This document shows, piece after piece, positions 7,284 to 62,200 of a stretch of 64,000 bases of DNA; position 1 is the first letter of the stretch; each line of letters begins with the position of its first letter. Both the position numbers and the translations under genes were made by a program. The notes under the pieces are model-generated. The model was not told the DNA's origin, searched no databases, and saw nothing but the letters and a program-made list of their open reading frames with translations. The stretch is from Clavelina lepadiformis (taxonomy: Eukaryota > Chordata > Ascidiacea > Aplousobranchia > Clavelinidae): NCBI RefSeq assembly GCF_947623445.1, contig NC_135240.1, forward strand, positions 7,688,001 to 7,752,000, written 5' to 3'.

Positions 7284-8886
7284 TGTTGTTTTTTAATTAC
7301 ATACAAATTATCTTCTATTTGTTTCTTTCAACACATAGAGGCGTGAAACGACTTTATCAGCAGTATCACATTACTAATCTAACAAAACTGATGACTAACA
7401 AACAAACATTCCAATTAACACAAACTGTTGTCTCATTGGTGACAGATATTTATCGTTGCGTGGCAACATCGCTTTTGATGGTGGCGCAAGAGTGCAAGAA
7501 GTGACTGTCGTTGGACCACGACCTTAATTTTTCTAACTACAGTAAATCGTTTACCTTTTTGGCCATTGAACCGACACACTTACAACTAAAAAAAAAATTT
7601 GAAAATTACACATCTCCTGTTTAAATATATTCTTTAGAAATAATACTCAAATACAAATACTTGTGGTTTTGTCTCCTTTTGACGAAAAATAAAATGATAG
7701 ATTGATTAATTGACTGTATTAAAATATGTTTCTATCCTAACCAATTTATAGAAATGTAGTAAACAAACATAACTTACTTTTTTCAAAGGTCAGGTAGTGA
7801 TAATAATCACATTGAATGCAGTAGGGAGTAGCCTAGGCTATATAAGTTAAATTAAAGGATGGATACATATGGGGTACATGCGTTGATCTAGGCTAGAGCT
7901 CGTTTGATTTACTAAACGTTTATCATATGTGAATTTTAAATTTGTGTGTTAGTTAGATCGTCCGCTCTTCTTACGCTTGCGGAAAAAAAATTTCGCTTGG
8001 CGGGCAAAATTCGTGTCAAGCCTGATCTGAAGGGCAGCATAAGTTAAAATTCCAAGATAAAAATAGAAGTAAAACTCCTAGCAGCACTGGGGCACAACGA
8101 CACACAATGTCATCGTTACATAAAAAGATAAACTATAACGACTGTACGAAAACTTAACTGGAACAATATTTGAGGAATATAGTTTTCAAATGTTTAGTTT
8201 TAATACAACCGATAATTAGCGAATCACGCATAAGATTGATTCTGCTTCTTGCTTATGATCAAGTTTAGAACACGTTTGTAATCAGGTATTATATGTCATT
8301 AGGATTCAAACAAGGTAAAATTAAGTACAATTTACCTTAAATAGCATCACGTACAGTCCAGTGCGTGTCGTATATCTAGGCGTACCTTAGTTTGTGACGA
8401 CAGTTTTAGCCCATCCTTGAAAATAGCGTTGTACGTGAATCGAACAGACATATTATTAAAACAAAACAACTGCGTCATTTTCTTTAATTTTACCATTCTG
8501 AAACAAAACTTTGTTTGAAGTGAACAAGGAGAAGAAATATTTTAAAACAGGGAACAGGACGAGTCCTATTGCTTTTTTGCTAATTGCAAATAATCTTCTT
8601 AATTAAAACACTTTCTCTATAAACCAAAACAAGGAAAAAGTTACGTTTAAAATTAGAAACAGTAATGGTTTTCTGATCAACATTAGCGAAGTTTATATAA
8701 GTATTAGTTCAGTTTGTTGGGAAGATGATTTTAACTTTACCACAATTATAGGTTAACCAGGAAGAAAATGATTCAACATTAAAAATTTTTCCGTCGTTTC
8801 CTGTCTCATTTCAAGTATCAGACAAAAGTTTATTCGACCTCAAGATTTTTCGAACGGTTAGCATTATCAATAATTACCACAGAAAA
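7284..8886. other. Intergenic, nothing recognised
   Basis: Upstream of both the 194-aa gene (leftward) and the first TSR gene (rightward). Only short ORFs without splice support. A TATATAA at 8694-8700 is a possible TATA box for the gene starting at 8887, implying a 5' UTR of roughly 160 nt. Confidence 0.4.
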
Positions 8887-9630
8887 ATGTTAAAACAGAT
8901 TTTAGGAGCTATTGCCACTCTACTGATTGCAATTACGCCTTTAGATGCTTTTCTTTTAGGACCAAGTAAGTGAAAGTCTTGAGATTACTTGATCTTTAGC
9001 TTGTAGTTACGCGATTTACAAAAATATACTGTTTTGTTAATAAATTGCTGGATATGCTGAATTTCTGTTAACTGTTAGAGCGTTGGATGTACAGTAGCTT
9101 TGGACGTTTTATTATTCATTTTGATGCTGATTATTTCAGTCGACTGCAGAGTGAGTGCTTTTGGTCCTTGGAGCGACTGCTTTTTCATACCTGACCTAAT
9201 TTCCCGGTCACTTGTCGCTGTTCAAGCCCGGGAGCGTGTAATTTTAAGATTTCCCCTTTTTGGGGGACGCCCTTGTCCCTATTTAATCGAGGAAAGATGT
9301 AAGTAAAAATTCAATATTAGTCGAAAATGTTTATGCAAAGTTTGCATTAAAAGTAGCCTATTAGTTTAGCCGACTTAATCAAATTAGTATTTATTTGTTT
9401 TTATTAACCAATGTTCACCAAAACAAGTGGTTGAACGAGCTTCACTTTTTGTTACAGTTTGTAATATTCCCGTTTTGGGAAACGTACTACCCCCACCTTT
9501 TGATATTCCCGGCGACCTGGCGGGCATCCACGACCTTCTAGGTCCGCCGATTAGTGATCCGGACCCCGAGAAAACAAGATATGATTCTTCCTCCGATTCT
9601 GACTCTGATTCTGACTCGGACAGTGACTGA
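8887..9630 (+). CDS. Secreted TSP1-repeat protein with acidic Asp/Ser tail (family member A)
   Basis: Exons 8887-8965, 9140-9298 and 9458-9630; both introns are phase 1 and GT-AG; 136 aa. Exon 1 encodes a signal peptide (MLKQILGAIATLLIAITPLDA). Exon 2 encodes a single thrombospondin type-1-like repeat: DCRVSAFGPWSDC, a region with paired Arg (ARERVILR), then GGRPCPYLIEER, with the closing Cys at the start of exon 3 (FCNIP). Four cysteines are visible instead of the usual six. Exon 3 continues with a Pro-rich stretch and ends in DSSSDSDSDSDSDSDSD. It lacks the Arg/Ser block of its relatives at 11412-12813 and 14830-16015. The phase 1-1 exon around the TSR is typical of shuffled extracellular modules. 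Function is unknown; secretion and charge suggest an extracellular matrix or calcium-binding role (inference). Confidence 0.75.
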
Positions 9631-11411
9631 GCATAACTGATTTCGACGCAAGTTTGCGTTTTGCATTTTTGTTCGTTTTGTTTATATCGGTGTATCTTTT
9701 TCGATTTAGAATGGCTTCAGTTGGCAAGTCAATATGTTTTAAGTTGACACTATGAAGCGTCTGCATTGCCATATTACGCCCTAAATTTAACCAATATAAA
9801 TACAAGAAAGTTATCGCAGGATTTATCAACTAACATTTGTACGTTTAAAACACTCCAATTACAGCAGAGTATGTACCAATCACAGCAAACGTTCTTACCC
9901 ATAATGCTCCAGCAAACCATCACGTTTCAAATCAAGTCTAGCCCAAGGCGCGACAAACACGTGAACTTCGAGAACAGGTTCCGTAACATTTTCTGAAAGA
10001 GATTACTTCTAAATTTGTACAGTAACCTAATCAATCAATTGTCAGGCTCTAAAACGGAAAGAAAATGACCGTAACTCGTTTTTGTGCTATTGCAGTTTTA
10101 ATTATTTTTTTCTTTGATTTAGTTTTTATGTACCTATAGGCTACCTTTAATTTTAACCTACAGAAATCGAAGCTGTTAAGCTAGATTTTTTGATAAATTT
10201 GTGACCTCGAAGGAGTTATACTAATAAGCCAAGTATCACTTTCAATTTGTTATTTTCTTTCCATATACTAAATATTTCTGAAACCAAAACTAAAAGATCT
10301 CTGAATGATACCCTTACTATAATCTTTTTCATGACAAAACTCTCATTGACCAAAAATATTAAGAGCCAAGAGGACCGCAAATATTGTTCAAACTTACTTT
10401 AATTTTTTGTACTTTTTAAATGTCAATGTCATCAGATTATAAAGATTGCATTATACAAATGCAATGGGATGCCTATAAAATTGCGGCACGTAGGCTTGAT
10501 GACATTTTTTACTTCCTTGATTGCAATAGTAAGCATATGTAAACGCCATTTTATTACGACATTGCAAAGATTGTCGGTAATCAGCGGAAAAAGAATTGCG
10601 CGTTCAAAGCAGTTTTCGATTAAATATTTAACGAACTTGGAACTACATGTTAACGTTATAAATCAAATTCTCAGGTATTCTTTCTCTTAATCTAACCCCC
10701 AATAATATTTATTAACAACGGCCGCGCGTGTCATATAATTAGGGTAGACATAGTCGCATATTTGATTATGACGTGTTAGACGGCACGTTATTACATACGT
10801 TTAATTTATTACACAAAATTAAAACGTGTTTTACCGGAGTTATTTGCCGCTCTTTGTCCGGTACCATCAGTGACCTGTATATACCGTTATTTTTGCAAGC
10901 AAACCAATTATTCAATGAAAACAACGCCAAAAAAGAAATACACCGTTCCACTATAGGCTAGCATAATATGATATAAAATTTAATAAAGATTTGAGAATTA
11001 TCATTAGACCCAGGGCCAGGCTTAACCGGTAACAGGCCTATGTACAATAAAGATATCAGTTTTTATCATTAATCATTTTTAGAACTATATATAAAAACCT
11101 CAGATTTTTTTTGAATTAGCGCGTCACTTATTGTGAACAATGGACATGACTTTTGTCGACATCATAATTCGTAAATCGCTTCATTCATGTGACAGTAAGC
11201 AACAGCGACAAATGAGCCAGTTTTACTTTTTATTTAATCAAATCCCATAAACATAGTTCCACGTTTATATTTAAGTTACTAGAAATGTCCATTTAACAAG
11301 AAAGAGGTTTAAGAATTATCAAGAGTTCAAGGAAACAAGACAAAAAATAAAATTCCAAGTATTCGGTTGTCATAGGTCATGCGGTAAAAACTTAAGGTGA
11401 ATCCACTTCAT
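9631..11411. other. Intergenic between convergent TSR genes A and B
   Basis: Only short, unsupported ORFs. No repeat or domain recognised. Contains the 3' flanks of the two converging TSR-family genes. Confidence 0.4.
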
Positions 11412-12813
11412 CTAACGCCAGTAATGATGATAACCGTCTTGCCCACGGCTTGGTGATCTGCTTCCACTACGAGACGGACTTCGACTCCCGGATCGACTAC
11501 GACTGCGAGATCCTCTCCTGCTGCTGCGAGACCGGCTACGGCTGCGTGATCGACTTTTTGAGCGACTCTTGCTCCTCTTTCGAGATCCACTTCGTGATCT
11601 GCTCCTGCTTCCACTTCGGGATCTGCTCCTGCTTCCACTTCGAGATCTGCTCCTGCTTCGGCTGCGAGACCGGCTTCTATCTGAATCCGAATCGCTGCTG
11701 TCGCCATCGGAAGTATCGCTGTCGGAAGTATCGCTGTCAGAAGTGTCGCTGTCATCAGAATCACTATCGGGACGGCGATCGTCGTCCTTATTGTCCCCAG
11801 TAGGCCGAGGTTTGGTGACAACTGGAGGTCGGCGAGTGTCGGCTACTTCTCTGGGAGGAAAAGCGACAAGAGGTTTGCATTCTGCAAAGTAAAATATACC
11901 TTTGATGATTAAGTAAAAACTTAGAGAGTTTAAACTTTTGAATATTGTGAATTTCTGCCGACGGTACATGCGGCAAACTATAGATTATAACTCATAACGT
12001 TGGCCAACAAAATCTTTCTTATTCTAACTAAACTGTCAGCAAAAGTATCTGTGATTAAATAACTTTTTTTTACGTATAATTAAGAGCAATATTGTAAAGT
12101 GTTATTTGAAATGGCAAATAAAATGCCCCTTCGTCCAGTTATAAATGTTTATTAGCTTAATCTACAGAGGTGCTTGTATCTGTCGCGTATCACATTCCTT
12201 GAATTAAACTGCATGAATGCATTCCCATGGAAGTTACTTTTGGTATAAAATGCAAGAACACATAGGCTATATACTATACAATCAAGTCGGCCTATCTCAA
12301 TAACAAATAGATGCTGCATGTAAGAACATCTCACACAATACTCTTCCGAGAACACATTTCGGGTTACCTTTGACTTGGTATAGGCTTGGACAATCCCTTT
12401 CGTCTCCTCTGATGATGTTCCTGTATCTTACTTGAACGTAGTGATTACCGTAGCCAGTGAAATCGTCTTTGGCCCAATAACAATCACCCCAGTCACCAAA
12501 CGGACCAACCTCACAACCAACTTAGAAGAAAAAATAAAAAATAATAATAAATTGAAAAATTTTGTCGTCTCAAAATTTTATTTTTCAAATCGTAATTCTG
12601 TAAGAGTCATCTGGAGGAGAAAACAACTGCTTCTTATACAAAAGAGCGAATAGGCCTATAGGCTGCATTTACGATGCATCAATAAGTGTTTGCAAATTTT
12701 TCTTATCAAGTTAGCCTACATAGCCTACCTTTTTCTCGGGCCCTGACAGCCCAGGCATCTGCCTGGTAAGAAAGAGCAGCTAAGAGGACAAATCCCAGTA
12801 AAGCTTTCCACAT
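11412..12813 (-). CDS. Secreted TSP1-repeat protein with Asp/Ser then Arg/Ser repeat tail (family member B)
   Basis: Exons 12813-12729, 12520-12368 and 11881-11412; both introns are phase 1; 235 aa. Exon 1 gives a signal peptide (MWKALLGFVLLAALSYQADA). Exon 2 holds one TSR: CEVGPFGDWGDCYWAKDD, the Arg pair VRYRN, then DERDCPSLYQVK, with the last Cys at the exon 3 start (ECKPL). Exon 3 begins with FPPREVADTRRPPVV, then an acidic DSDTSDSD block, then a run of over 70 residues of Arg-Ser dipeptides with occasional Gly, Lys and Pro, ending DGYHHYWR. RS repeats are normally found in nuclear splicing factors, but here they follow a signal peptide and a disulphide-type domain and there is no RRM, so a secreted polyelectrolyte is the better reading. 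ADTR-PP is shared with member C. A TTTAAA about 70 bp upstream may act as a TATA element. Confidence 0.8.
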
Positions 12814-14829
12814 ATTGATGAACTTGTTTGTTCAATATGTTCAATAAAAAGTGAACGAAAATCAATTCAAGTATCGACCTTTTAAAGGAAACCGTTGTCA
12901 AATGTTTAATCATCGTGACACGGCTTCTGTCACGATACCATGGACTTAATTGATGCAACAAAGTTAATAATACATATTTCGCGTAGGGAAGGTAACGATT
13001 TTAAAGTTTAAGGTTGTGACGTAAATATCTGTTACACATCGCATGGTTGAATGTAGGCTATATAATTGTTGCGACGAGATAGGCATAATGTCATCCGCAG
13101 TTGGTGGAAAAAATTCGCTTCTGTCATCAAACGTTTTTCAAGGAATAAATTCCGACTCTAAAAAAAACCAAGAACTACAGGTTACCGAGATGGAGGCTAC
13201 GGGTAAATCTACCAAGCATAGATTTATAAATGGATGAAAGTTGCAAGCCATTTTTTAAACTTTTTTATATACAATGACTTACCTAAAACCATTTGTTTAC
13301 CAAAAGATTGCAAATCGCTATTAGGAAAAAAATCAAATTAGGAAAAAACAAGGTTTTGTTTTATTATTACATATTTGCTGGAAAAACATCGAGTACTTTA
13401 ATTGCTACGTAAAAGGAGAACGTGATTGCCTTTTTGTAATTATTTGAAAATTGCAAAACATTGTCTCACAGTTTATATAAATTACCAACCTGTGTGCGCG
13501 AACTGTTGTAACTGATCGTGGAATGTTAATTCTATATGCGAGAGTTTAATAAGCCCAAAGCGTTTGATTAAACCGTAAATGAATTTAAACACCTTCCAAA
13601 AAAGTAGGTGGGTTTGCATAATAAGTAGGCATCGTGCACGTTAATGCTCCTTATTTCTGATCTTTTCTTTCTTCTTTTAGAAAACAGCGAATACAATGTC
13701 AATATCATCATTATGTGGTTTAATTGTTCTTAGACAAATAAATTAAAAAAGTTAATTACAATTGGGATGGTCTAAGTGCTTATAAGTGCTGTCTTTTCAA
13801 AGGCACTCTATACCTTTCTTCTATAGAAAGCTATGCAATTTGAATACTTCCCAGGTTGTCTTTCTGAACCTCAGCCAGTTACTAAGTGCTGCATTTCTAC
13901 AATACATGTACCAACTTGAAAACAATCAAGTACTGATATTATGATTTGTAATTCAAGTAGTAGCAGTATACTATAATAAAAAAACATAGATATGTAAAAA
14001 ATATTTTCAAATTTTCAGCTAATTACTGTTAAACGAGATATCGCAGAAAGCTAAACAACTTGCTCATCGTTAATTGAAGATTGCCAATCATTATAGTGCA
14101 CGTCATGATGACTAGTAGGTCGTGATGGTGCACGTCATGATCGATGGCCGAAACGGAAAAAATTCTTCTCATGATTAAAATATCCAATCACTTTTTCTTG
14201 CGAGTCGGCAAATAAATCTACAAACTGGCATCGAACACGTGATATCTAATACCGAGTGTTATGATCTTGATCAAGAAGTGCCTATAATCACAATTGGCTC
14301 GCATAAAGTAGTCTGTAGATATAAAAATATGATGCAACGAAAACAATCTTTTTGAGACAACTTGTGGTTGTCCTACTACAGGTTTTGTCAAAAGTCAAGA
14401 ACGGGCTGGTGGTTCTATCTTCCATTTTTTGCAAAATAATTACTTGTGCAATTGCTACAAAGTGGAAAAACAACAAAAACTCTATAGACAGCCAAAGGCT
14501 TTTCGAAAACATCAAAGACATGATTTTTATTATCGAACGACATGACTGTGCCTAAGCGGTGTCGTTATCACAATTAGCTATCTACCTCAATTAGCAAGGT
14601 GGCGCAACTCTATATCTAAGATGCGGTTGTGTTTCAACAGACTTTGCCTTCAATTAAAAATGCGCTGGCTGTTAAATTACTCATTTTTCACAAACTAATT
14701 ATACGAGTGCAATTTTTGCAAATTAAAAACAGCAGAAAAATTCCCAAACTGACAAACACCGTCTGTTATAAAAAGCAGCATTTAGCGATTTACATTCATA
14801 TTTGCAAGCAGTTCACACATCGGAGTGAA
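12814..14829. other. Divergent spacer between TSR genes B and C
   Basis: Shared upstream region of two divergently transcribed paralogues. Holds a perfect 14-bp direct repeat GTGCACGTCATGAT at 14096-14109 and 14128-14141, and the TATA box of gene C. No coding segment recognised. Confidence 0.5.
14767..14774 (+). promoter_or_regulatory. TATA box of TSR gene C
   Basis: TATAAAAA lies 63 bp before the ATG at 14830. Usual spacing would put the transcription start near 14797 with a 5' UTR of about 30 nt. This supports the short first exon and its start codon. Confidence 0.6.
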
Positions 14830-16015
14830 ATGTTGCAAAAAACTTTACAATTCGCAGCAATTTTCTCAGTGACAGCATGCGTTTTCGGCGCACTGCCTGG
14901 GAGAAATGAACCAGGTTAGACGAGTTTTTATTAAAAAGATTAACTAATAAGCTGCAATAAAAAAAATTCTTTAAAACCTATGGGTCAAAAGTAATAATAT
15001 GTGCATTTGTTGTAAATGGAAAACAAATCTTGTCTTATGTTTATGTTGTGAAATGAAGTTGTTTTAAATTGTTTTTTTTTTGTCCCAGTAAACTGTATCG
15101 TAAGTGACTTCGAAGACTGGAGCGACTGCTACGACATACTAAACGAAGAGACCGGTCAATATGAAAGAATGCAATACAGAATTCGAGAAATCCTTCAGGT
15201 ACCTAGAAACGGTGGAGAAGAATGCCCAAATCTACTTGAGACACGAGGTAACGACATAAAAGAAACACAAGAACTTGACTGGAGATCTAAGGCCTAAATT
15301 TTTTCTCGTTTTAGTTATAGTTTGTTAAACGTTTATGTGTGTCAAATAGATTAATTATAGTATTGGTGGGAACGTAAACGTTATTTAAAATGAGTGGAGC
15401 TTTTTCTTGTCATTTTATTGGAAAAAAATAAACGAGAGGTTTGCAGGATGCATTGATGACGTCAATCCCTGGTTTGACGTTGAGGCTGAAGTAGACGAGG
15501 AAGAAAACAATGATGAAGAAGACAATCAGGAGACATATGAAGAAGAGCGGAGACCTCCCTTGGCTCTTCCTGAAAAAAATCTGGCCGACACAAGAGCTCC
15601 CCCGGCCCGTTTTACGGAAGAAGAAAATGTGAGAAAGAGCGGTAAAAGACGCGGGTCAGATTCCTCTTCCGACTCGGATTCGAGTTCCGATTCGGATTCG
15701 AGTTCCGACAGTTCTTCTGACAGTAGCCGAAGTCGCAGCAAAAGCCGAAGCAAGTCACGCAGCCGTAGCCGGAGCAAATCTCGAAGCCGAAGCAGGTCAA
15801 ATAGTCGCGGATCCTCGAGAAGCAGAAGCCGTAACAGCAGCAGAAGTAGGAGCCGTGGATCGAGCGGCGGCCGCGATTGCCATCTCAAAAGCTACTATTG
15901 GAAGCAATACAAGTACTACTTGTATAAGTATCAGCACGCCTCTTCACACAGTGACAGATCGAATTACAGCAAAAAATACCTGTGGTTTTTGAAGAAGTAC
16001 AAGTCATGCCACTAA
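14830..16015 (+). CDS. Secreted TSP1-repeat protein with SD/SR tail and Tyr/Lys-rich end (family member C)
   Basis: Exons 14830-14914, 15089-15247 and 15447-16015; both introns are phase 1; 270 aa. Exons 1 and 2 have sizes (85 and 159 bp) matching B exon 1 and A exon 2. Exon 1 is a signal peptide (MLQKTLQFAAIFSVTACVFG). Exon 2 is a TSR: NCIVSDFEDWSDCYDI, the Arg pair YRIRE, NGGEECPNLLETR, with the closing Cys in exon 3 (GCIDDVNPWF). Exon 3 then has a Glu/Asp-rich segment, LADTRAPPARF (shared with B), a Ser-Asp block, a long SRSRSKSR block, and a C-terminal region unlike the others: CHLKSYYWKQYKYYLYKYQ and more Tyr/Lys, ending KSCH. An in-frame ATG lies far upstream at 14629, but 14830 is chosen because it starts the signal peptide and lies just after the TATA box. 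Tyr/Lys plus polyampholyte tails recall adhesive or scaffold proteins (inference only). Confidence 0.8.
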
Positions 16016-36336: not shown

Positions 36337-38076
36337 ATGGCAGAAATCTTTAAAGAATTTATAACAACTTTTCTTGCCGGCAGTGCAGGTACATTAAAAG
36401 CATATAGTAATATAAAATCAGTAACTTGTTTAAAATTTCCTAGTTTATTGTATGTATCGGCATTCGTTATAATGAGTAAGTGTAACTATACTTAAATAAT
36501 GACAAGATAAGTTTGTTCGAACTTTTTAATTTTTCATAAAAGGAGGCACAGCCTGTGTGTACGCGGGCCAACCATTGGACACTGTAAAAGTCAAACTGCA
36601 GACCTTTCCTAATGTTTATTCCGGAACATTCGATTGTTTTAAGACAACTTTGAAAACTGAAGGTCTACGTGGCTTGTACAAAGGATCAGTGCCTGCACTT
36701 GTGTGCAGTGTTTCTGAAAATGCTGTTTTGTTTGTTGCACTTGGTTGCATGAAAAATATGATTGCCTACATTACCAACAAGCAAAGTTCAAACTTGAGGT
36801 GGTTTAAATTTCTTTGTATCATATGACATTAAGTTGGATATAATATTTTGGGGTTCTTATTTTTTTGTGGATATATAGCAATGTTTAATTGTTTTTGAAG
36901 AATTTTGTTATTTATAGTTACTGTCGGTATTTAAATTAATAAATGTTGAAATTGTATTTTTAGTAATATTGAAAACGCTTGTGCAGGAAGCCTTTCATCA
37001 ATTTTTTCATCATTAGTTGTTTGTCCAACTGAACTTGTAAAATGCCGAATGCAAGCAATGAGTGAGTTATACACAACAGGGAAGCTTGAAAAACCAATGT
37101 ACGATTATTAAACTATGCATATGTATCTACTGCTCTGTAAATTTCATATTTAATCTTGACAAGATATGTTCTGAGAGTTGAAAGTTTGCTCTGTTAAATT
37201 TGTGGTATCGGCAAATTGTAAATGTAACAAATATTATTATATAATATGTACTGTGGTTTGTTTGATATGATTGTTCACCATAGTATCCTGTATTGCCATG
37301 GTCATGAGTATTATTATACTAGGACTGTCACTTGTTACAGTACATTGCAGTGATGTAACACTGCTTTTGAAGGTCCCCATATGGTGTTGTGAGAAGCATG
37401 ATAAAAGCTGAGGGTGTTTTGTCATTATTCAATGGGTTAACAAGCACATGGGTGAGAGAAATGCCGGGGTATTTCTTTTTCTTTTATGGTTATGAATTTA
37501 CAAGAAACCTTTTAACAGCAAAAGGCAAGAAAAAGGATGACATAGGTAAAGAGAATGTAAATATGTGTGCAATAGATTAATTGTTCGTCTGTGAAGAAAT
37601 GCACAAACGTAGTATCTGAGGCTAGTTAGCAAGCTGTATTTTCCAGGTGTTGTAAAGACAGCATTTGCCGGTGGCACAGCAGGTCTGTGTTTGTGGGTGG
37701 CTATTTTTCCTATCGATGTCATCAAATCCAGGATACAAGTCATGTCGGTAGCTGGAAAGCAAGAAGGTTTTAGGAAGACATTATTTCATGTTGCTAGGCA
37801 TGAAGGCAAGTTGGTTACATTGTACCATGTGGATACTGATACCATATAAATCTATAAAGCATATAATTATGAAATATTCTAGTCACTGTAATCTTTGTGC
37901 ATGTATTTTCAGTGATACAGTTTTTGTTGCTTTTTGAATGTAACAAATTGTCAACAGGTATCAGAGCTTTGTACAGTGGACTTCTTCCAACTGTGATTCG
38001 AACTTACCCTGCCAATGGAGCCCTCTTTGTTACATATGAATACACGAGTAGATGGCTTCGGAAACGCATTAATTAA
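36337..38076 (+). CDS. SLC25A15: Mitochondrial ornithine carrier (SLC25A15/ORNT1 type)
   Basis: Exons 36337-36388, 36543-36798, 36964-37098, 37373-37545, 37647-37805 and 37958-38076; 297 aa, close to the human 301. It moves ornithine and citrulline across the inner mitochondrial membrane in the urea-cycle/arginine pathway. All three carrier signatures are present: [23 protein letters not shown] and [11 protein letters not shown]. The orthologue-specific runs [33 protein letters not shown] and [11 protein letters not shown] match human ORNT1 nearly residue by residue. Intron 5 uses a GC donor (GAAG|GCAAGT) with a normal AG acceptor, a known rare splice type. Intron 3 has a weak GTACGA donor. 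An AATAAA at 38242-38247 is a plausible poly(A) signal. Confidence 0.95.
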
Positions 38077-42033: not shown

Positions 42034-45000
42034 TTACACCTTGCTTTTTGTTTTCACATATCTAAAACTGCGCAAAGGATCTTCCTGCTGCTTTTTATAT
42101 TTCGGATTTGGTTTTCCAAATCTAGGTTTCTTTCGATCCCGTTTAACGTCATGGGATGGAGGCGGTAGTGTGCGCTTCGTCTTCACTGGAACCCGATGAT
42201 ACATGCTTTTTAAAGTGGGTGGTACTGCAAAGCACAAACGATATTTCACGTGATAATATATTTAGAACTAAGCGTATGTGTTATGCGGACCTTTCATGCT
42301 GAGCAAAAACACGAATGGTCTTTAACTCTGCGGCTCATTTTCCCTAGGTATAGTTTAATACTGCAGCATTGACTAAAGGCGATGGCAAGGCTGACAGTTA
42401 GATATTTTACTAAAACAGATAAAGAAACAGAATATCGACAAATACATCTTTTATATACAACAAACAATAACCACATTTATAGTAACTTACTTAAATATTC
42501 TGGCACATTCTTCATGTGTTTCTTGACCTTTACCGGCCTCGATATAGAGTCATGGCGTAACACCTGCAGATCATGTGGGTTTTCTTCAAAGTACGTCTTT
42601 AACTTCTCTGAGTTGAGCATTTCTCTTCTCACTTCCTTCACTCTTGCTTCACGGATTGCATTCTTTGTCACGGCACGAATAGCATCCTGGAATCCAGACA
42701 AGTGATAACAGACAGGAAATTTGCTACGACCTTGAGTTTACTTTGCTTAACTTGACAGCAATATTTTAAGCAGTTTTGGACATTTTTGTAAACACCATCA
42801 ATCATCCTACATTGTTCCATGCAAAATACCTAACCTAGCTACACAAATTATTTAAAAAATGTGTGGCATTCAATGCTAAATATACAACACTATGCACAAA
42901 AACTCTAAAACAATACAAAATATAAATGCTACCTTGCATCGATACCGGAAGCCTTCAATTTCATCCATTTTAAACTGATATGGTTTTAGTGGTTCTTCCT
43001 CACTGTTGGTATCAGACAACTGCTTTTGAATTTTCTTTAAAACTCGCATTTCTTCGTCCACCACAAATGAGAGAGCAGTACCCATCTGCTCACCGCGAGC
43101 AGTTCTGTAAATATAATTCAGTTACGACAACAGTTTGTCCTCTAGCCTTAACTTGTAAGAAAATGATTTCTTTACTCTGTGCTGTAAACTTAAATGACAC
43201 AATAATCTGTCTAAAAGATAATCAAATGGTTCAAAAATCGAAGAGTTTTAATTTTTTTCCTAGTTAAATTTATACAATAAACCGCAATTGTGCAGAAAAA
43301 ATTAGAATGCATACCTGCCCACTCTATGCACATAGGATTGCAGCGATGTTGGAAAGTCAAAATTAATCACATTGGACACATTTTGAAAATCAATTCCTCT
43401 TGAAACGCCGTATTCTTTCATTTTTGTGCTTTTTTTCTTTCTAAAAATAAGCAAGATTCATTGTTTTTCTGTCTGGTAACATGCAATTTGACAAATTCAT
43501 AAAACAAAACTTAGCATAAAAACTGGTGCTGGAAGTGCACATTGAAAAAACATAGCGACAGAAGACAAGTTGCATTCATTGAGATTTACATGCACTAAAA
43601 TACAACTTACTTCAATAAAATAAAACTTACTTAATCAATAAAACTTACTTTATTTTTCCAGATGTTTTTGACTTCTTTTCATCAACTGATGTTGATTTTG
43701 ACGATTTACTGGCAGTTGATACAACTGCACTTTCGTCAGTGGCAATTATATAATCGTACAGGCCCTAAACACACATATAAAGCTAAACATTGCACTTTGC
43801 TGTTGTTAACAAGTGTATTTATATGACGAACCTGATTAAATTGCTCTACTACATGACACCTTGTATTTACAGGAAGTTCGGAATTTAAAACGCAACAAAA
43901 TATGGAAAATTGTTCCAGAAAGAGTTTGAGTCTGAATATGAAGTAAATCATCCGTATGTTATATGTTTCCTACATTCTTTTCTTAGTACCGTACAACTTC
44001 AGTTTTATTTTAGTTAACTTATTCTCACACATAATATAGTCGCTGGTGTGTTCACTTACCTATATGATCGGCCGACGGTGTTTACAAATATAAGAGACTT
44101 TCCACGGACTAGCTTAAGTTTTATAAGGGCGTAAAGTAATAAATATTTGTCATCTTCTGTGTCACAAATGACGTGGTATTGTATGAGTTGGTCAGCCATT
44201 GGTAACTGACTCTCACTAAGATTCAATGTCACTGGATTGTGAAGGACAAGTTTTTTCAGAGACTCCAAGTCCTATTAACATTGATTTTTTTAAAAACCTG
44301 ATTATGAAAATTTTTTGAAAGACACACAGTTTCAGTAGCAACTTTGATGATATACTTTATCTTTCAACAGGAAACTCAATAAATACAAATAAAATACAAC
44401 AAAAATATATTTCTAGGAACAAATACCTCACTGAATGTTGCAGACATTAAAAAAGCCTGATAGGACTTTGGAAAGTGTGCCAACAAGCTCTTCAAATCAT
44501 TTTCATAACCGAATGAAAACAAGAGATCAGCTTCATCCATTACCACCCACTCGACCGACGTAGAAATGTCTAAGTTTTCAGCTTTTATGTGAGCCAACAA
44601 GCGACTTGGGGTACCAATTACAATATCCGGCTTCACAGCAAGCAATGGCCTGCAAAAGGTGAAACATGTATTTTATCATAATGGATGTTTTTTTTTTGTA
44701 AAAATACTCACACAATTAAGTGATTATTGTTAACATGTATATATTTTTTTGGCATTTTTTGCTTATGTTTGGTCTACATACTGTGACTAGGGATGCACAA
44801 TACAGAATATCGAATCTTAGAGATTCGAATCTCAATGTATTCAAATCTTATTTGCAGTTTATTTTCGGATATCAGGATTCGAAATTAAATCTGTTAAATG
44901 AACAGTGTGCGATGTTAAACAAATGTAAAGTTGATATTTTCCGTCTTGCGCGCCGCCTTTTTTCTTCATAGACTGTTTGTTCCAAGCGCCTATTTTCTTC

Positions 45001-48000
45001 CTTCATAGGGTTCACGCAGTTATCAGAACTGCAGACACGCAGTGCGTTCCCGTACGAGTAAATAATTTGTCCTGCCTAGATTTTAGTTTAATCATCCGTA
45101 ACGAAAAACGCCAACAAAAAGCTGAAGTTTGCACGTGCTGCATGTGTGTGCGGGCGAATGATTCATTACGTGTGCTGTGCAGTGCAGTCGCGCGCGCATT
45201 GATTCACTCACCAACCATGCGCTTGATATTCGTAAACAAGACAACAAGTAAGCAGTAGACTGTATGTAAGTGTAGACTGTAGAGGAATAAGGTAATCTAT
45301 TAATTATACTGCGTCATGTCGAGTGGTCGTGGGCGAAAAAAAAGTTCCAGCGTGTGGGAACATTTTTGTAAGCCAGATGAAAACAATAGCGTGGTTTGTC
45401 GCCATTGCAAGGCAATTTTATCATATTGCAACAGTTATGGCAGTCTGTTGATTGTTGAAGCACTTGAAGAAAAAGCATGTGTTCTTTAATATCAGCGGAA
45501 TTGAAGGCAGTCTCTCTGCAAGCGCAAATAACAACAGTAGGAAGTAGGAACAACACCAGTAGGAATTACAACAGTCCAAGGACTCGTGGAAGAATTGTTA
45601 CCTCTAAAGGTGGCCAGTGACTTTATTGAAGGAGATAAATATGTGACAACTGCAGCCATTATAGCATTAATTAAAGGGCTGTTGACTGTTGAGTAACTAC
45701 TCAAGCTCCTTCTCTACAAGCAGTGCTAGTGTGCATATTTCTGCATTTAGACAAAAGATTAAATCTGATATAGAATGAGGATTTGACTTTGCTGTTGCAT
45801 CTGATGATGTTCCATTTCCATCTTTATTTGATATGGCAACATGGCTTCCCCCAGCATACAAAGATAAGTATTTTAAACCGCATCATGCTACAAGGGTTCG
45901 CCTGCATTTAAAATCAGAAATGATTTCTGACACAACCATAGCAGTGATAGCACCACACCGTAATCCCATTCCTGTTGGCGACAGCACCACCAGTTCTGTT
46001 TCCATGATGGAAAATTAGTTTAATTTAGGAATGGAGGTGCAACAAAGCAACCAAGAAGATGCAGATGATGAGGGAGCTGACATTGACACTATTGTAACTA
46101 ATGAGGTTTCAGCCTACCTAAAAGATAACTCCAATAAAACAGACGTGTTGGAGTATTGGAACTTAAAAAAAAGAATTACCGAAAGTCACTTAGAAGCACT
46201 GAATATCCTACATTGCAACAAGCAGCTTCTTGATTAATTCTATGATTCGATGTGTAAATGTGTTACCTCCGAAAAGTATGGTATTAAGACTGTTGGTAGT
46301 GCAGGTGGCAAGAACTACACGGCTCTATGCTTTAATATGAATCGTATGATGCTTGATTTAGCATATGTTATACTGTTTGTCATGTGATACTAATACAATT
46401 CAAAATAATGTACAAATATTTTTGCTTTTTGTTCGTTATTACAGTATTTGGAAAAAATTGCCGCATAATTTCAGAATAGATTCGAAATTCTGGATTCGAA
46501 ATTAAGTATTCTAGAATATTCTAGAATAGCCAGGTATTCTGTATTGTGCATCCCTAACTGTGACTTTTAACCAAAATAAAGCTGTATAAATATGTTGATG
46601 TAATAACAATAGCAATAGTACTGTTCGCCTATATTCAAGTCTAACACTACACATAGTCTGAAACACGCATGTGCATGCTTTTGCTGCGAGAAACATCTGT
46701 TTAACAAAGGAACATAACTTTAACTACATTAACATGATTATTAACCGCAGACTGACATATAAAACCAGCTCCTGATCAAACAGAAATCATCTATCTAGGT
46801 TTCTTATAAACTACTCGCTCCATTGAAAGGTAACTTACTTTAATAATTGTGGGTCAGCTTCAGTAGAAATATCAACACACGTGACTTGCTGTGAGCAATA
46901 TGCGGCCAACTGTTGCATCATAAAGTGGGCTTGACTGGATAATTCACGGGAGGGAACAATTATGAGAGCTCTAACACACTGCTCTAAAAAATTAGCGTGA
47001 ATGTTTGAAGACGAAAGAATAATTTTATATTGCATTATGCAAAACTTTCCCATTTCTATAAACGTCCAAATATGAAATTTTACCATCATGTTTGTTGTTT
47101 GAATCTAAAACTTTCTTGGCTCGCAAAATTTGTTGAATGACAGGAACTGAAAACGCCGCAGTTTTACCAGATCCTGTTCTGGCTCGAGACAAAATATCTT
47201 TCCCATCTAAAGCTAAAGGAATTGCCTTTTCTTGAATTGGCGTGGGTTCCGACCAACCAAGTTTCGCAATGGCCTGCAAAGCAGAACAAGAAGAGTTTAT
47301 AACTTTTTAATTCTGTTGAAATAAATAATAAACTGTTGAGCATCTAAGTGTGCTTAAGGATGGGTTCCTTCCCCTACAAGGATTACGGAAGAAATTGCAG
47401 CAAAACCTTGCGCTGAAATATTTTTTTGGGGTTTATTGCACAACATGAGAGGCAACATATCACACAATTAAAAAGACAGAAAAACAGCTGGCAATTGTTG
47501 TTTTCAAAATTATGCTTAAGTATCCAGATTGCAAGACTGCCAAGGTTAATATCCATTGGCTTCTCAATGTCATGGCTGATTAAAGTTTATAGATTTTCCA
47601 CGGTCACAGACATGGCAACTGTAAAATGCAACACATGTGCATGGTACGCACAAAGTCTTAGTACAGTAGTATGATATTCCTAATATCACTTTTGTTTTAC
47701 CAAAAACAGTTATGATTATATAGTCTTGAAAATAATTGAATGAAATTGATACACATGTGGTACATATTACAAAATTGAAATTTAAAATCCTAAAACTCAA
47801 AACAATTCACCAAAATTGAGTTGGGACTTCAAGTTACCACTAAATTCAAACTGGTACTGGTATCCAGACAGACAATCTGGCACTACTAAAGATGAGGACG
47901 CTTTCACTATCATGAAGTTGTGCAAGAAATAATATTCTAGTAGTTATCTTCAAAGTGCTCAGACCGTCAGACAGCAAGCTTAGTGAGAGTTGCCAACCCG

Positions 48001-59200: not shown

Positions 59201-62200
59201 ACCTCCCTGGGGAATCCCCGCTGACTTGTCATCAAGCAGGAGAGGCAGATTATCAGAACTAAAAGAAGAAAATAATTTCAAAATAATAAGTTCTCGTTCT
59301 AAAAACCGAAATCGGTTTAGCAAAAAAAGCCTTAAAATTTAAAAATCAGCAGTTGGCGGTTCTTTTGCTTGACAATAAAACTTCTCTTATAATTTGTGGA
59401 TATAAGTGCAATCCTCTTAGCAAGGTTCGTAGTAACCTATACATCTTACATACGAATTAATGGCACAGATATCTTGTACAGTAACTTGATTCGTACTTGG
59501 CGTTATAAGAGACAATTGTATTCTTTGGGGCGTTGTTGTTGGTTCCGTGATGAGGCGGGGCTTGCTGTAAATAATTGTTTGTTTCGCTCTGTGGCGGACC
59601 CATCGGGGGAAAACCATCTGTACCAGGATTCGCCCCTTGTGCACCCCCGCCCCCTGCGGTCGGTGCCATGTGAAAGCCGGCGCTGTATTGGGTGTTGTCA
59701 AACCTGTCCCTGGCAACTCCTCCTCGGTGGCTCGCTGCAACAAAAATCGGTTTCATTAAAAATATAAAAAATAAATATTGTAAAATATCAGAATAACTTT
59801 AAAGTTAAGCGCAAGTCCAAAAACAAGTCGATTTTATATGAAAGAACACTAACCACTGAATATTCTGGTAAAATATTTTTGAAAAATAATACGAGGTTAG
59901 GCAGTTATCGACGAAAGAAAATCGCAAAAAGTCTTAGTTTTTGGCTTTCATTGTGAAGTAATTGAAGGCTATTGTTATGTCATAGATCAGTCAAGTTGAT
60001 TGACAGCATGCTGCTGCTGTTGCTTTCCTTGCGCGGTAGTCAACTGAAGTCAGAAGTGTAAGTCATTGTAATTGAATAAATTATGAATGTTTGAAACCTA
60101 AAAAATCTGGTGGCCCAATCATTTTCCTTCATGAAGTCACGGTACCCTTTGGACCGCATAGGCTACTCGTCAAACCGGTACGTACTGGTTGCCGTGATTG
60201 GGCTACAGGCTGTCACCTATCAAGCTCTCGGCAGTTAGAGCAATCTATACAGTTGTAACAGATACATACAAGTCATACGTGATATACAGTAGGTATAGCT
60301 AATTTATGAATTTGTGAATGTTGTGTGTGACTACGTATGACATCACAAGAGCCTTGATCTACGTCACAATAAAGGCCAATTTTGCAATCTTCTTTTGCAT
60401 ATAATTCCTTTAACCAAGAATTATTCTTCAAAAACATTTCAACAGGATATTCAGTGAGTAGTGTTCTTTCATATAAATTCAACTTGGTTTTGGACTTTCC
60501 CTTCACTTTACAGTAAGTTTGCAATTAGGTTAAGTTGAAAGCAAAAAACTTCAAAAAAAAACGAGCGCAAAATCCATAGAAATCTCAAACATGCAAGAAG
60601 GAAAAAACTACGTGAGACCTTATGAATTACCTGAACGAGCAGCGAAACTGAAGGTTCGAACTGTAGTGAAAATAAGAAAACAAACCGGTTAGTGCAAGTT
60701 TGATTATATGGGCAGCACACACTTGTAGTTGAATTAAAACAGAATTAGTAAAACAAGAAAAAAAGGAACTCATGCAAGGCTGTGTGGAAGCATATTTCGC
60801 ACATTAGTATTCTCATCAAACAATTAGTGGGCTATCCATAGTAATTATACGGGATTTAGTTAATGTCAAATGTAGACAAGTTGCTAAATGATACCACATT
60901 ACCACTGCGAACATTTATGACTCTGGTAATCGAAATGCATTTCAAACCGAGCAGCTCATGCATGAGATCTATTAAAGCCAATTTACCGTGTAAGCTTCGT
61001 GATTTGTGGCCGCGTTTCGATTTTCGATAATAACAAATCCCACCGACGATCAAAGCGATAACGGCGACGAATGCGACAGCCACGCCGACGACTACCGCGG
61101 GCTGACGTTGGATCATGCCGACGAATCCCTCGTCCGCGCCAGGAGCGTCAGTTGAAGCCGCTGTGTTTAGAAAAAGACAAGTTCTAAGAGCTCGCCAACT
61201 TACAAGTTATGGTGGTGGGTCAATTTAACCATCGGACAATTAAACCCAGAACAATTCAACCAAAAAACTATTCGACCCACAGACGTTGGTTGGGTCGTTC
61301 TGGGTTTAGTTATCTTGGGTTGACTCGACCTGGAAGCGAAAATTATACCAACACCGTGACTAAGGACTGCAATATAAGTTATGGTTATAGCGCGGTAAAG
61401 AATCAAAAGAATTAACGACAAGGGAAAATAGCAAATGTAAATTGTTAGCATATACCTTCGATTGTGAATTCCTTTTCTTCGCTCGTTTTGCCTTCGCCAA
61501 GATTAGTCGAATACGTAACATTGGCGACGTACGTTGCGTCATCACGTAGATCACGCAGCGTGTACTCGATCACTGAAGAATTTACATGCACAACGTGTCC
61601 CTGGGCGCGGCCAGCACGCAAACGGTATCTCAATGCGTAGCCGGTGACGTATTGAGCAGGTAGGTCACGTGGCGGATGCCATTGAAAAGTTACCTTCCTT
61701 CCGTCATCTGGGTCAACTTTGATGGACAGTGACGGAGTGGCCGCGTCAACAACTATAAAACAAATAATTTTCATTATACTCACAAAAAACGTTTAGGGAA
61801 GAAACATCAGAAGTAAGAGAATACTGTAAAAGTAGAGGCTCGTTTACGATTAAAGGCACAAGTGATTGATTTTCTGCCAAAGACTAGACAAGTCAATCAT
61901 TCAAAGTGGCAAATTACTGATCTGTTGATGGCAGACCGTGCAGAAGAAAAGCTTCAGTAGCCTGGAAGCCGCCAGCGGATCGTAATTCTATTTTAAGGCC
62001 TATAACTGCCCCCAATTAATTATTAATAAAAACAACCAACTCAAGTCAGTTCGGTCATGTGCCATAGGATATAAAATTTTCATGTCTTGTATATGGTTTA
62101 TGGCGAGTCACATTGATAGGACAGGTCAGGTTAAGTGTTTGTGCGGCGATTACTTCAAGAAATACTTCCATATGTTCATATACAAGTCATGAAACATTAT

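Follow-up and report, generated by a model that had tools for sequence, protein, structure and literature searches.

Three adjacent genes on C1 of the Clavelina lepadiformis genome, A (+), B (-), and C (+), join a putative signal peptide to a single, reduced thrombospondin type-1 repeat (TSR) and a charged, repetitive tail. They lie in a stretch of 64,000 nucleotides (C1:7688001-7752000), which we call the window and whose positions are used below unless a contig is named. The architecture of leader, reduced TSR, and charged tail is firm, and from their sequences A, B, and C look like genuine genes of unusual design. The TSR domain and both kinds of tail were known already; what appears not to have been found before, judged against Pfam and searches of the open-access literature, is their union behind a leader. 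The exons, rebuilt from the sequence, are as follows, with the grounds for each call.

8887-8965 (+): gene A exon 1, ATG and hydrophobic leader (MLKQILGAIATLLIAITPLDA); GTAAGT donor in phase 1, hydropathy
9140-9298 (+): gene A exon 2, TSR, 159 bp, phase 1-1; Pfam TSP1_spondin
9458-9630 (+): gene A exon 3, last TSR Cys, Pro-rich linker, Asp/Ser tail (DSSSDSDSDSDSDSD), and stop; charge, synonymous excess
12729-12813 (-): gene B exon 1, hydrophobic leader (MWKALLGFVLLAALSYQADA); splice context, hydropathy
12368-12520 (-): gene B exon 2, TSR with RGD, 153 bp, phase 1-1; TSP1_spondin, similarity to A and C
11412-11881 (-): gene B exon 3, last TSR Cys, ADTRRPP linker, Asp/Ser block, Arg/Ser block, and GYHHYWR end; charge, synonymous excess
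14830-14914 (+): gene C exon 1, hydrophobic leader (MLQKTLQFAAIFSVTACVFG); splice context, hydropathy
15089-15247 (+): gene C exon 2, TSR, 159 bp, phase 1-1; TSP1_spondin, AlphaFold2
15447-16015 (+): gene C exon 3, last TSR Cys, acidic ADTRAPP linker, Asp/Ser and Arg/Ser blocks, and Tyr/Lys end; charge, synonymous excess

In all three genes a putative signal-peptide exon comes first, the only TSR exon second, and a low-complexity exon last, measuring 79/159/173 bp in A (136 amino acids), 85/153/470 bp in B (minus strand, 235 amino acids), and 85/159/569 bp in C (270 amino acids). The sequence-only reading of this DNA had claimed leader exons of 79, 85, and 85 bp, TSR exons of 159, 153, and 159 bp, phase-1 introns, and a low-complexity last exon, and the rebuilt exons agree with it; once the splice contexts were read, 6/6 introns were GT-AG and 6/6 were in phase 1, with lengths of 159 to 486 bases. 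The leaders were called by Kyte-Doolittle hydropathy over a 12-residue window, which reached maxima of 2.3 to 2.8 in the three first exons, and the signal peptides are putative to that extent. A TATAAA stands 63 bases 5' of the gene C ATG. At 8874-8889, TTACCACAG abuts the AAAAATG of gene A; it resembles a splice acceptor and may mark a spliced-leader site or an intron in the 5' UTR.

Next, we looked at the TSRs themselves. They matched the Pfam profile TSP1_spondin (PF19028) in A (E value = 3.8e-7, 30.7 bits), B (E value = 0.0063, 17.2 bits), and C (E value = 2.8e-10, 40.7 bits), and none of the three reached the curated cutoff of 41 bits, from which C was 0.3 bits short. By profile E value they are homologous to TSP1_spondin, and the predicted fold is TSR-like: the AlphaFold2 model of the gene C TSR had a mean pLDDT of 89.9. 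A Foldseek search gave no match with E < 1. The earlier reading had taken the TSRs as ordinary, which they are not, since each holds four cysteines rather than the six of a thrombospondin type-1 repeat, with Cys III (of the CG) and Cys VI absent in 3/3. In all three, moreover, FxxW replaces WxxW, and the C-S-x-S/T-C-G motif was not found. WxxW is the C-mannosylation motif and CSx(S/T)CG the O-fucosylation motif. By comparison, CG is present in 15/17 other aligned TSRs of the genome, and the loop after Cys II is 8 to 11 residues long in 15 other genome TSRs (those caught by one search pattern) versus 16 to 17 in A, B, and C, a difference of 5 to 9 residues. The four-cysteine pattern put forward earlier, C..F..W.[DS]C...R.R...CP.L....C, was right in its cysteines in 3/3 genes and needed correction in its spacing: the motif is C....F..W.DC, 16 to 17 residues, R.R, and CP.L.....C. 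The TSR exon encodes three of the four cysteines; the third exon supplies the fourth, at its beginning. The gene B TSR also holds an RGD (12402-12410, -) that is not in the A or C TSRs and that may be there by chance.

Two further TSR loci were recorded in passing. A pair of near-identical TSR-like matches 18 kb apart (C4:9018289 and C4:9036588) also has F for the first W and lacks CG. A dense TSP1_spondin array occupies C7:16393758-16525481, where each of the two loci read has several tandem TSRs, one of the two also having EGF-like exons.

We then evaluated how A, B, and C are related to each other. In searches of the genome (209 Mb, 95 contigs), the TSRs of A and C were each other's best match after self (E values = 8.6e-5 and 7.8e-5). 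B was not among the matches of the A TSR, ranked fourth, below a TSR on C4, among those of the C TSR, and itself found only C besides self (E value = 0.021). When the comparison was made locally, over the 66 fetched loci plus the window and with corrected scores, the picture was similar among the matches listed. With A as the query, C scored 45.1 bits, followed by three other TSRs (38.9, 37.7, and 33.5 bits) and then B (28.5 bits); with C as the query, A scored 45.4 bits, and at least four other TSR loci stood above or level with B (34.3 bits); with B as the query, C was best (32.0 bits), followed by A and one other TSR (28.9 bits). When TSRs were shuffled with C and W held fixed, 0/500 shuffles reached the observed score for each of the pairs A-B, A-C, and B-C (z = 7.8, 12.9, and 8.9, respectively), and comparable scores were found with other TSRs (B versus R-spondin-2, z = 9.2). 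In a tree of 22 TSRs, TSR2 of complement C6 fell next to A among A, B, and C; supports were near 0.7, the fragment was short, and the tree is uninformative and does not set the three apart as a group of their own. Because other TSRs outscore B for A and for C, the TSR sequences by themselves fall short of proving an exclusive trio.

The linkers and the DNA add to this. The B-C linker score was reached by 0/1,000 shuffles, which bears out the motif ADTR-PP (ADTR.PP) that had been noted in both genes, while the gene A linker had no significant match (score reached by 916/1,000 shuffles for A-B and 72/1,000 for A-C). Third codon positions were the least alike among the genes (0.29 to 0.42, versus 0.55 to 0.58 for second positions), and no DNA repeats of at least 30 bases joining A, B, and C were found. 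Judging by these two observations together, A, B, and C are old duplicates constrained at the protein level. Common descent of the three is the simplest reading of the sequences, given their shared reductions, identical exon design, adjacency, and the B-C linker. Of the local duplication with inversion proposed earlier, the duplication stands, on adjacency, design, the B-C linker, and the best matches (mutual for A and C, B to C); the inversion is consistent with the data and is put no higher, since no repeat of at least 30 bases joins the genes at the DNA level.

The tails differ among the genes. Asp/Ser and Arg/Ser tails had been ascribed to all three; the Asp/Ser block is present in 3/3, and the Arg/Ser block is confined to B and C. 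Gene A ends in an Asp/Ser block only, with a charge of -7 in 15 residues. In gene B, an Asp/Ser block of 30 amino acids (charge -14) is followed by an Arg/Ser block of 79 amino acids (charge +33), and in gene C, an Asp/Ser block of 25 amino acids (charge -7) is followed by an Arg/Ser block of 51 amino acids (charge +20) and by 46 terminal amino acids in which Tyr and Lys abound and Cys occurs twice. We compared each codon of a block with the codon two places on and took, for each frame, the synonymous share of the pairs that differed. In frame 0, synonymous pairs numbered 7 of 10 differing pairs in the Asp/Ser block of A (expected 1.6, z = 5.0), 8 of 23 and 43 of 70 in the Asp/Ser and Arg/Ser blocks of B (expected 1.6 and 10.2, z = 5.7 and 12.2), and 9 of 19 and 17 of 39 in those of C (expected 2.3 and 3.9, z = 5.3 and 7.5). 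The excess was thus present in frame 0 in 5/5 blocks and off frame in 0/10 tests (z = -2.1 to 0.7). Because the synonymous excess is restricted to the coding frame, the tails of A, B, and C are, by this codon comparison, real protein selected at the amino acid level. Ser and Arg each use all six codons in the B and C blocks. The Arg/Ser block of B also holds a 24-base array of about 3 copies with 96% matches, which suggests that this block has partly grown by a recent DNA repeat.

A genome search with the Asp/Ser and Arg/Ser tail of C found only itself and missed B too, evidently because of low-complexity masking, and is silent on other Arg/Ser genes. For the Tyr/Lys end of C, the genome yielded no relative; the matches other than itself had E values of 0.62 and 0.76. 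Arg/Ser repeats are known mainly from the nucleus, and best from nuclear splicing proteins.

What such proteins might do is speculative. The reading to which we lean, tentatively and by analogy, is that A, B, and C are polyelectrolytes of a matrix or an adhesive, anchored by their TSR. They would be secreted as structural parts of tunic, mucus, or adhesive, outside the cell, where the TSR would fasten each protein to glycans or proteins of the matrix. In B and C, an Asp/Ser block whose serines may be phosphorylated along the secretory pathway would make up a diblock with the oppositely charged Arg/Ser block. Such a diblock could condense with other copies of itself, with gene A protein (acidic only), with sulfated polysaccharide, or with Ca2+, both inside granules and once released, and the C terminus of C, with its many Tyr and Lys, would be a plausible cross-linking site. 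The action would resemble that of the polyanion/polycation cement of the sandcastle worm, without kinship. At the level of sequence, polyanion and polycation do occur together in leader-bearing proteins, as looked for in a coacervate adhesive. A gene for a FAM20C-type secretory kinase is present in the genome (C5:17991885, E value = 7.3e-81), which makes phosphorylation of Ser in the secretory pathway possible. FAM20C prefers S-x-E, and the Asp/Ser blocks of A, B, and C offer no S-x-E sites, which counts against this reading.

Two analogies favor the matrix or adhesive role. In marine cements, polyanionic and polycationic proteins coacervate, and phosphoserine occurs in marine adhesives, according to the sections available to us of a study of such cements (PMC4275877); likewise, the accessible part of another study proposes that a tunic phenol oxidase is tethered to the matrix by its TSP1 domain (PMC9395347). 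A word search of the available portions of two studies on ascidian larval adhesion found no protein of the A/B/C kind, and the papilla-associated TSP1 protein KH.L96.43, as described there, carries a trypsin-like domain, a design unlike that of A, B, and C. Pfam matches of neighboring genes in the window (4/10 frames matched a family) gave no hint of a matrix role.

Those neighbors include a mitochondrial carrier exon (36530-36826), DEAD-box helicase exons (44376-47306, -), and a fibronectin III exon (61445-61792, -); six other long frames between 36530 and 61792 had no Pfam match. At 493-1614, both strands have long open frames made up of a minisatellite-like repeat in degenerate form (minus strand, HYQRMVYFLGHHHLGRYY...).

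As far as the sequences go, the tail might just as well serve to mask a cationic segment or to bind heparan sulfate. The second of these would suit R-spondin-like modulators, in which the TSR and basic tail bind heparan sulfate proteoglycans without the furin-like receptor-binding repeats, and of which A, B, and C might be exon-loss descendants; we consider this unlikely. The R-spondin architecture and the binding of heparan sulfate by the R-spondin TSR are described in the portion available of PMC8954098. When a profile of A, B, and C was compared with solved structures, the sole match with an E value below 0.01 was the TSR of R-spondin-2 (6.3e-4); the gene B TSR as the query alone had no solved-structure match at E values up to 10. 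In the shuffles, the z value of B with R-spondin-2 was on a par with those of B with A and with C, and the values for C and A with R-spondin-2 were 5.5 and 3.0. The R-spondin-2 loop after the second Cys is also long (15 residues in the alignment), basic tails are found in B and C, where they follow the acidic block, and the exon order of leader, TSR, and basic exon is that of an R-spondin minus its furin-like exons. A gene with furin-like repeats, a TSR in a phase 1-1 exon, and a basic region is found on this chromosome too, at a distance of about 0.41 Mb. Against this reading, a Pfam scan of the three proteins at E values up to 1 turned up no furin-like match, the tail of A is acidic, and the tails are regular Arg/Ser and Asp/Ser repeats. 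Having no furin-like repeat, A, B, and C are, by architecture as read from sequence, not R-spondins.

The reverse search was of little help. The R-spondin-2 TSR matched 17 places in the whole genome, the best being a multi-TSR gene (C1:24089229, E value = 4.9e-5), and none was A, B, or C; the furin-like gene's own TSR was missing too, so the search cannot single out R-spondin TSRs in this genome and has little power. In the local comparison over the window and 66 loci, the R-spondin-2 TSR scored 29.6 bits with B, 23.1 with C, 17.3 with A, up to 41.2 with ordinary TSRs, and 21.6, below B, with the TSR of the furin-like gene. R-spondin-2 was absent among the matches listed in the structural comparison, which carries no weight. 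The furin-like gene (C1:8107001-8117000, -, at 8.11 Mb) is itself a likely R-spondin gene, with four furin-like matches (two over the cutoff), a TSR of unusual CRC...C spacing in its phase 1-1 exon, and a Lys/Arg-rich last exon.

Rather less probable is a role in host defense, in which the acidic Asp/Ser propiece would shield a cationic Arg/Ser segment freed by proteolysis and the TSR would be the recognition part. Tunicate antimicrobial precursors with acidic propieces occur, acidic and basic blocks stand side by side in B and C, and the TSRs of complement C6/C8/C9 are among those closest to the TSR studied here. However, thrombospondin-1 TSRs tie with them in Z in the structural comparison, the C6 sequence matches have E values of 0.019 or worse, no clear cleavage site was seen by eye between the Asp/Ser and Arg/Ser blocks, and gene A has no cationic part. 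To our knowledge, Arg/Ser repeats are not a known antimicrobial design.

We regard as improbable that A, B, and C are gamete-surface or egg-coat proteins whose charged repeats change fast. The tails do vary between genes in length and makeup while the TSR is kept, and TSR proteins occur on ascidian sperm; those sperm proteins are, however, astacin proteases, another design, in the sections available of the source (PMC6353882), and nothing in A, B, or C points to expression in the gonad. Least credible of all is that the three are exons of larger TSR genes, the objection raised from the outset, or that a gene model was joined wrongly: the models rest on genomic sequence, and neither AATAAA nor ATTAAA occurs within 770 bases past the stop of gene A, but one design recurs at three loci, each with its own ATG, leader, phase-1 introns, and stop, the tails are under coding-frame selection, and queries with A, B, and C found no fourth TSR exon in the window or in the 10 kb upstream.

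No described family with a leader, a TSR, and an Asp/Ser or Arg/Ser tail was found in Pfam or among the titles and abstracts listed from the open-access literature, the genome covered being that of C. lepadiformis alone. The earlier statement that no such family is described holds within that scope. Taken together with the matrix or adhesive role, this raises the possibility, which we hold more loosely than that role itself, of an undescribed tunicate family in which an Arg/Ser repeat beside an Asp/Ser repeat would make an extracellular one-chain polyampholyte, carried on a TSR that has shed its third disulfide and its O-fucose site and acting as a self-condensing matrix or glue protein. If secreted diblocks of this kind are maintained by selection, they would give nature a polyampholyte in a single chain and offer a starting point for work on wet adhesives or on tunic assembly; A, B, and C would also show that a TSR can dispense with its conserved Cys III and its O-fucose site.

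Among known systems, the thrombospondin type-1 repeat of the TSP1_spondin kind shares with A, B, and C the profile match, the two-Arg layer, CP.L, a compatible predicted fold, and the phase 1-1 exon, and differs in having Cys III, Cys VI, WxxW, C-S-x-S/T-C-G, and a shorter loop. Terminal complement components C6/C8/C9 have a complement domain that Pfam did not find in A, B, or C, and their sequence similarity is at best that given above. R-spondins have a leader and a single TSR, as do A, B, and C, with a basic C-terminal exon (as in B and C) and a long loop (in R-spondin-2), but they carry furin-like repeats, and their region rich in Lys and Arg stands where B and C have Arg/Ser and Asp/Ser repeats. 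The sandcastle-worm cement (Pc-3A/B and the basic Pc proteins) likewise pairs a serine-rich polyanion with a polycation, and no homology is claimed; its polyanion and polycation are separate proteins without a TSR, whereas B and C carry both charges in one chain behind a TSR. Finally, Tuphoxins, tunicate tyrosinases with TSP1, resemble A, B, and C in secretion (putative for A, B, and C), in having one TSP1 domain, and in their proposed tunic role, and differ in the tyrosinase domain, to which some add EGF or cupredoxin domains; the accessible part of their description mentions no charged repeat tail (PMC9395347).
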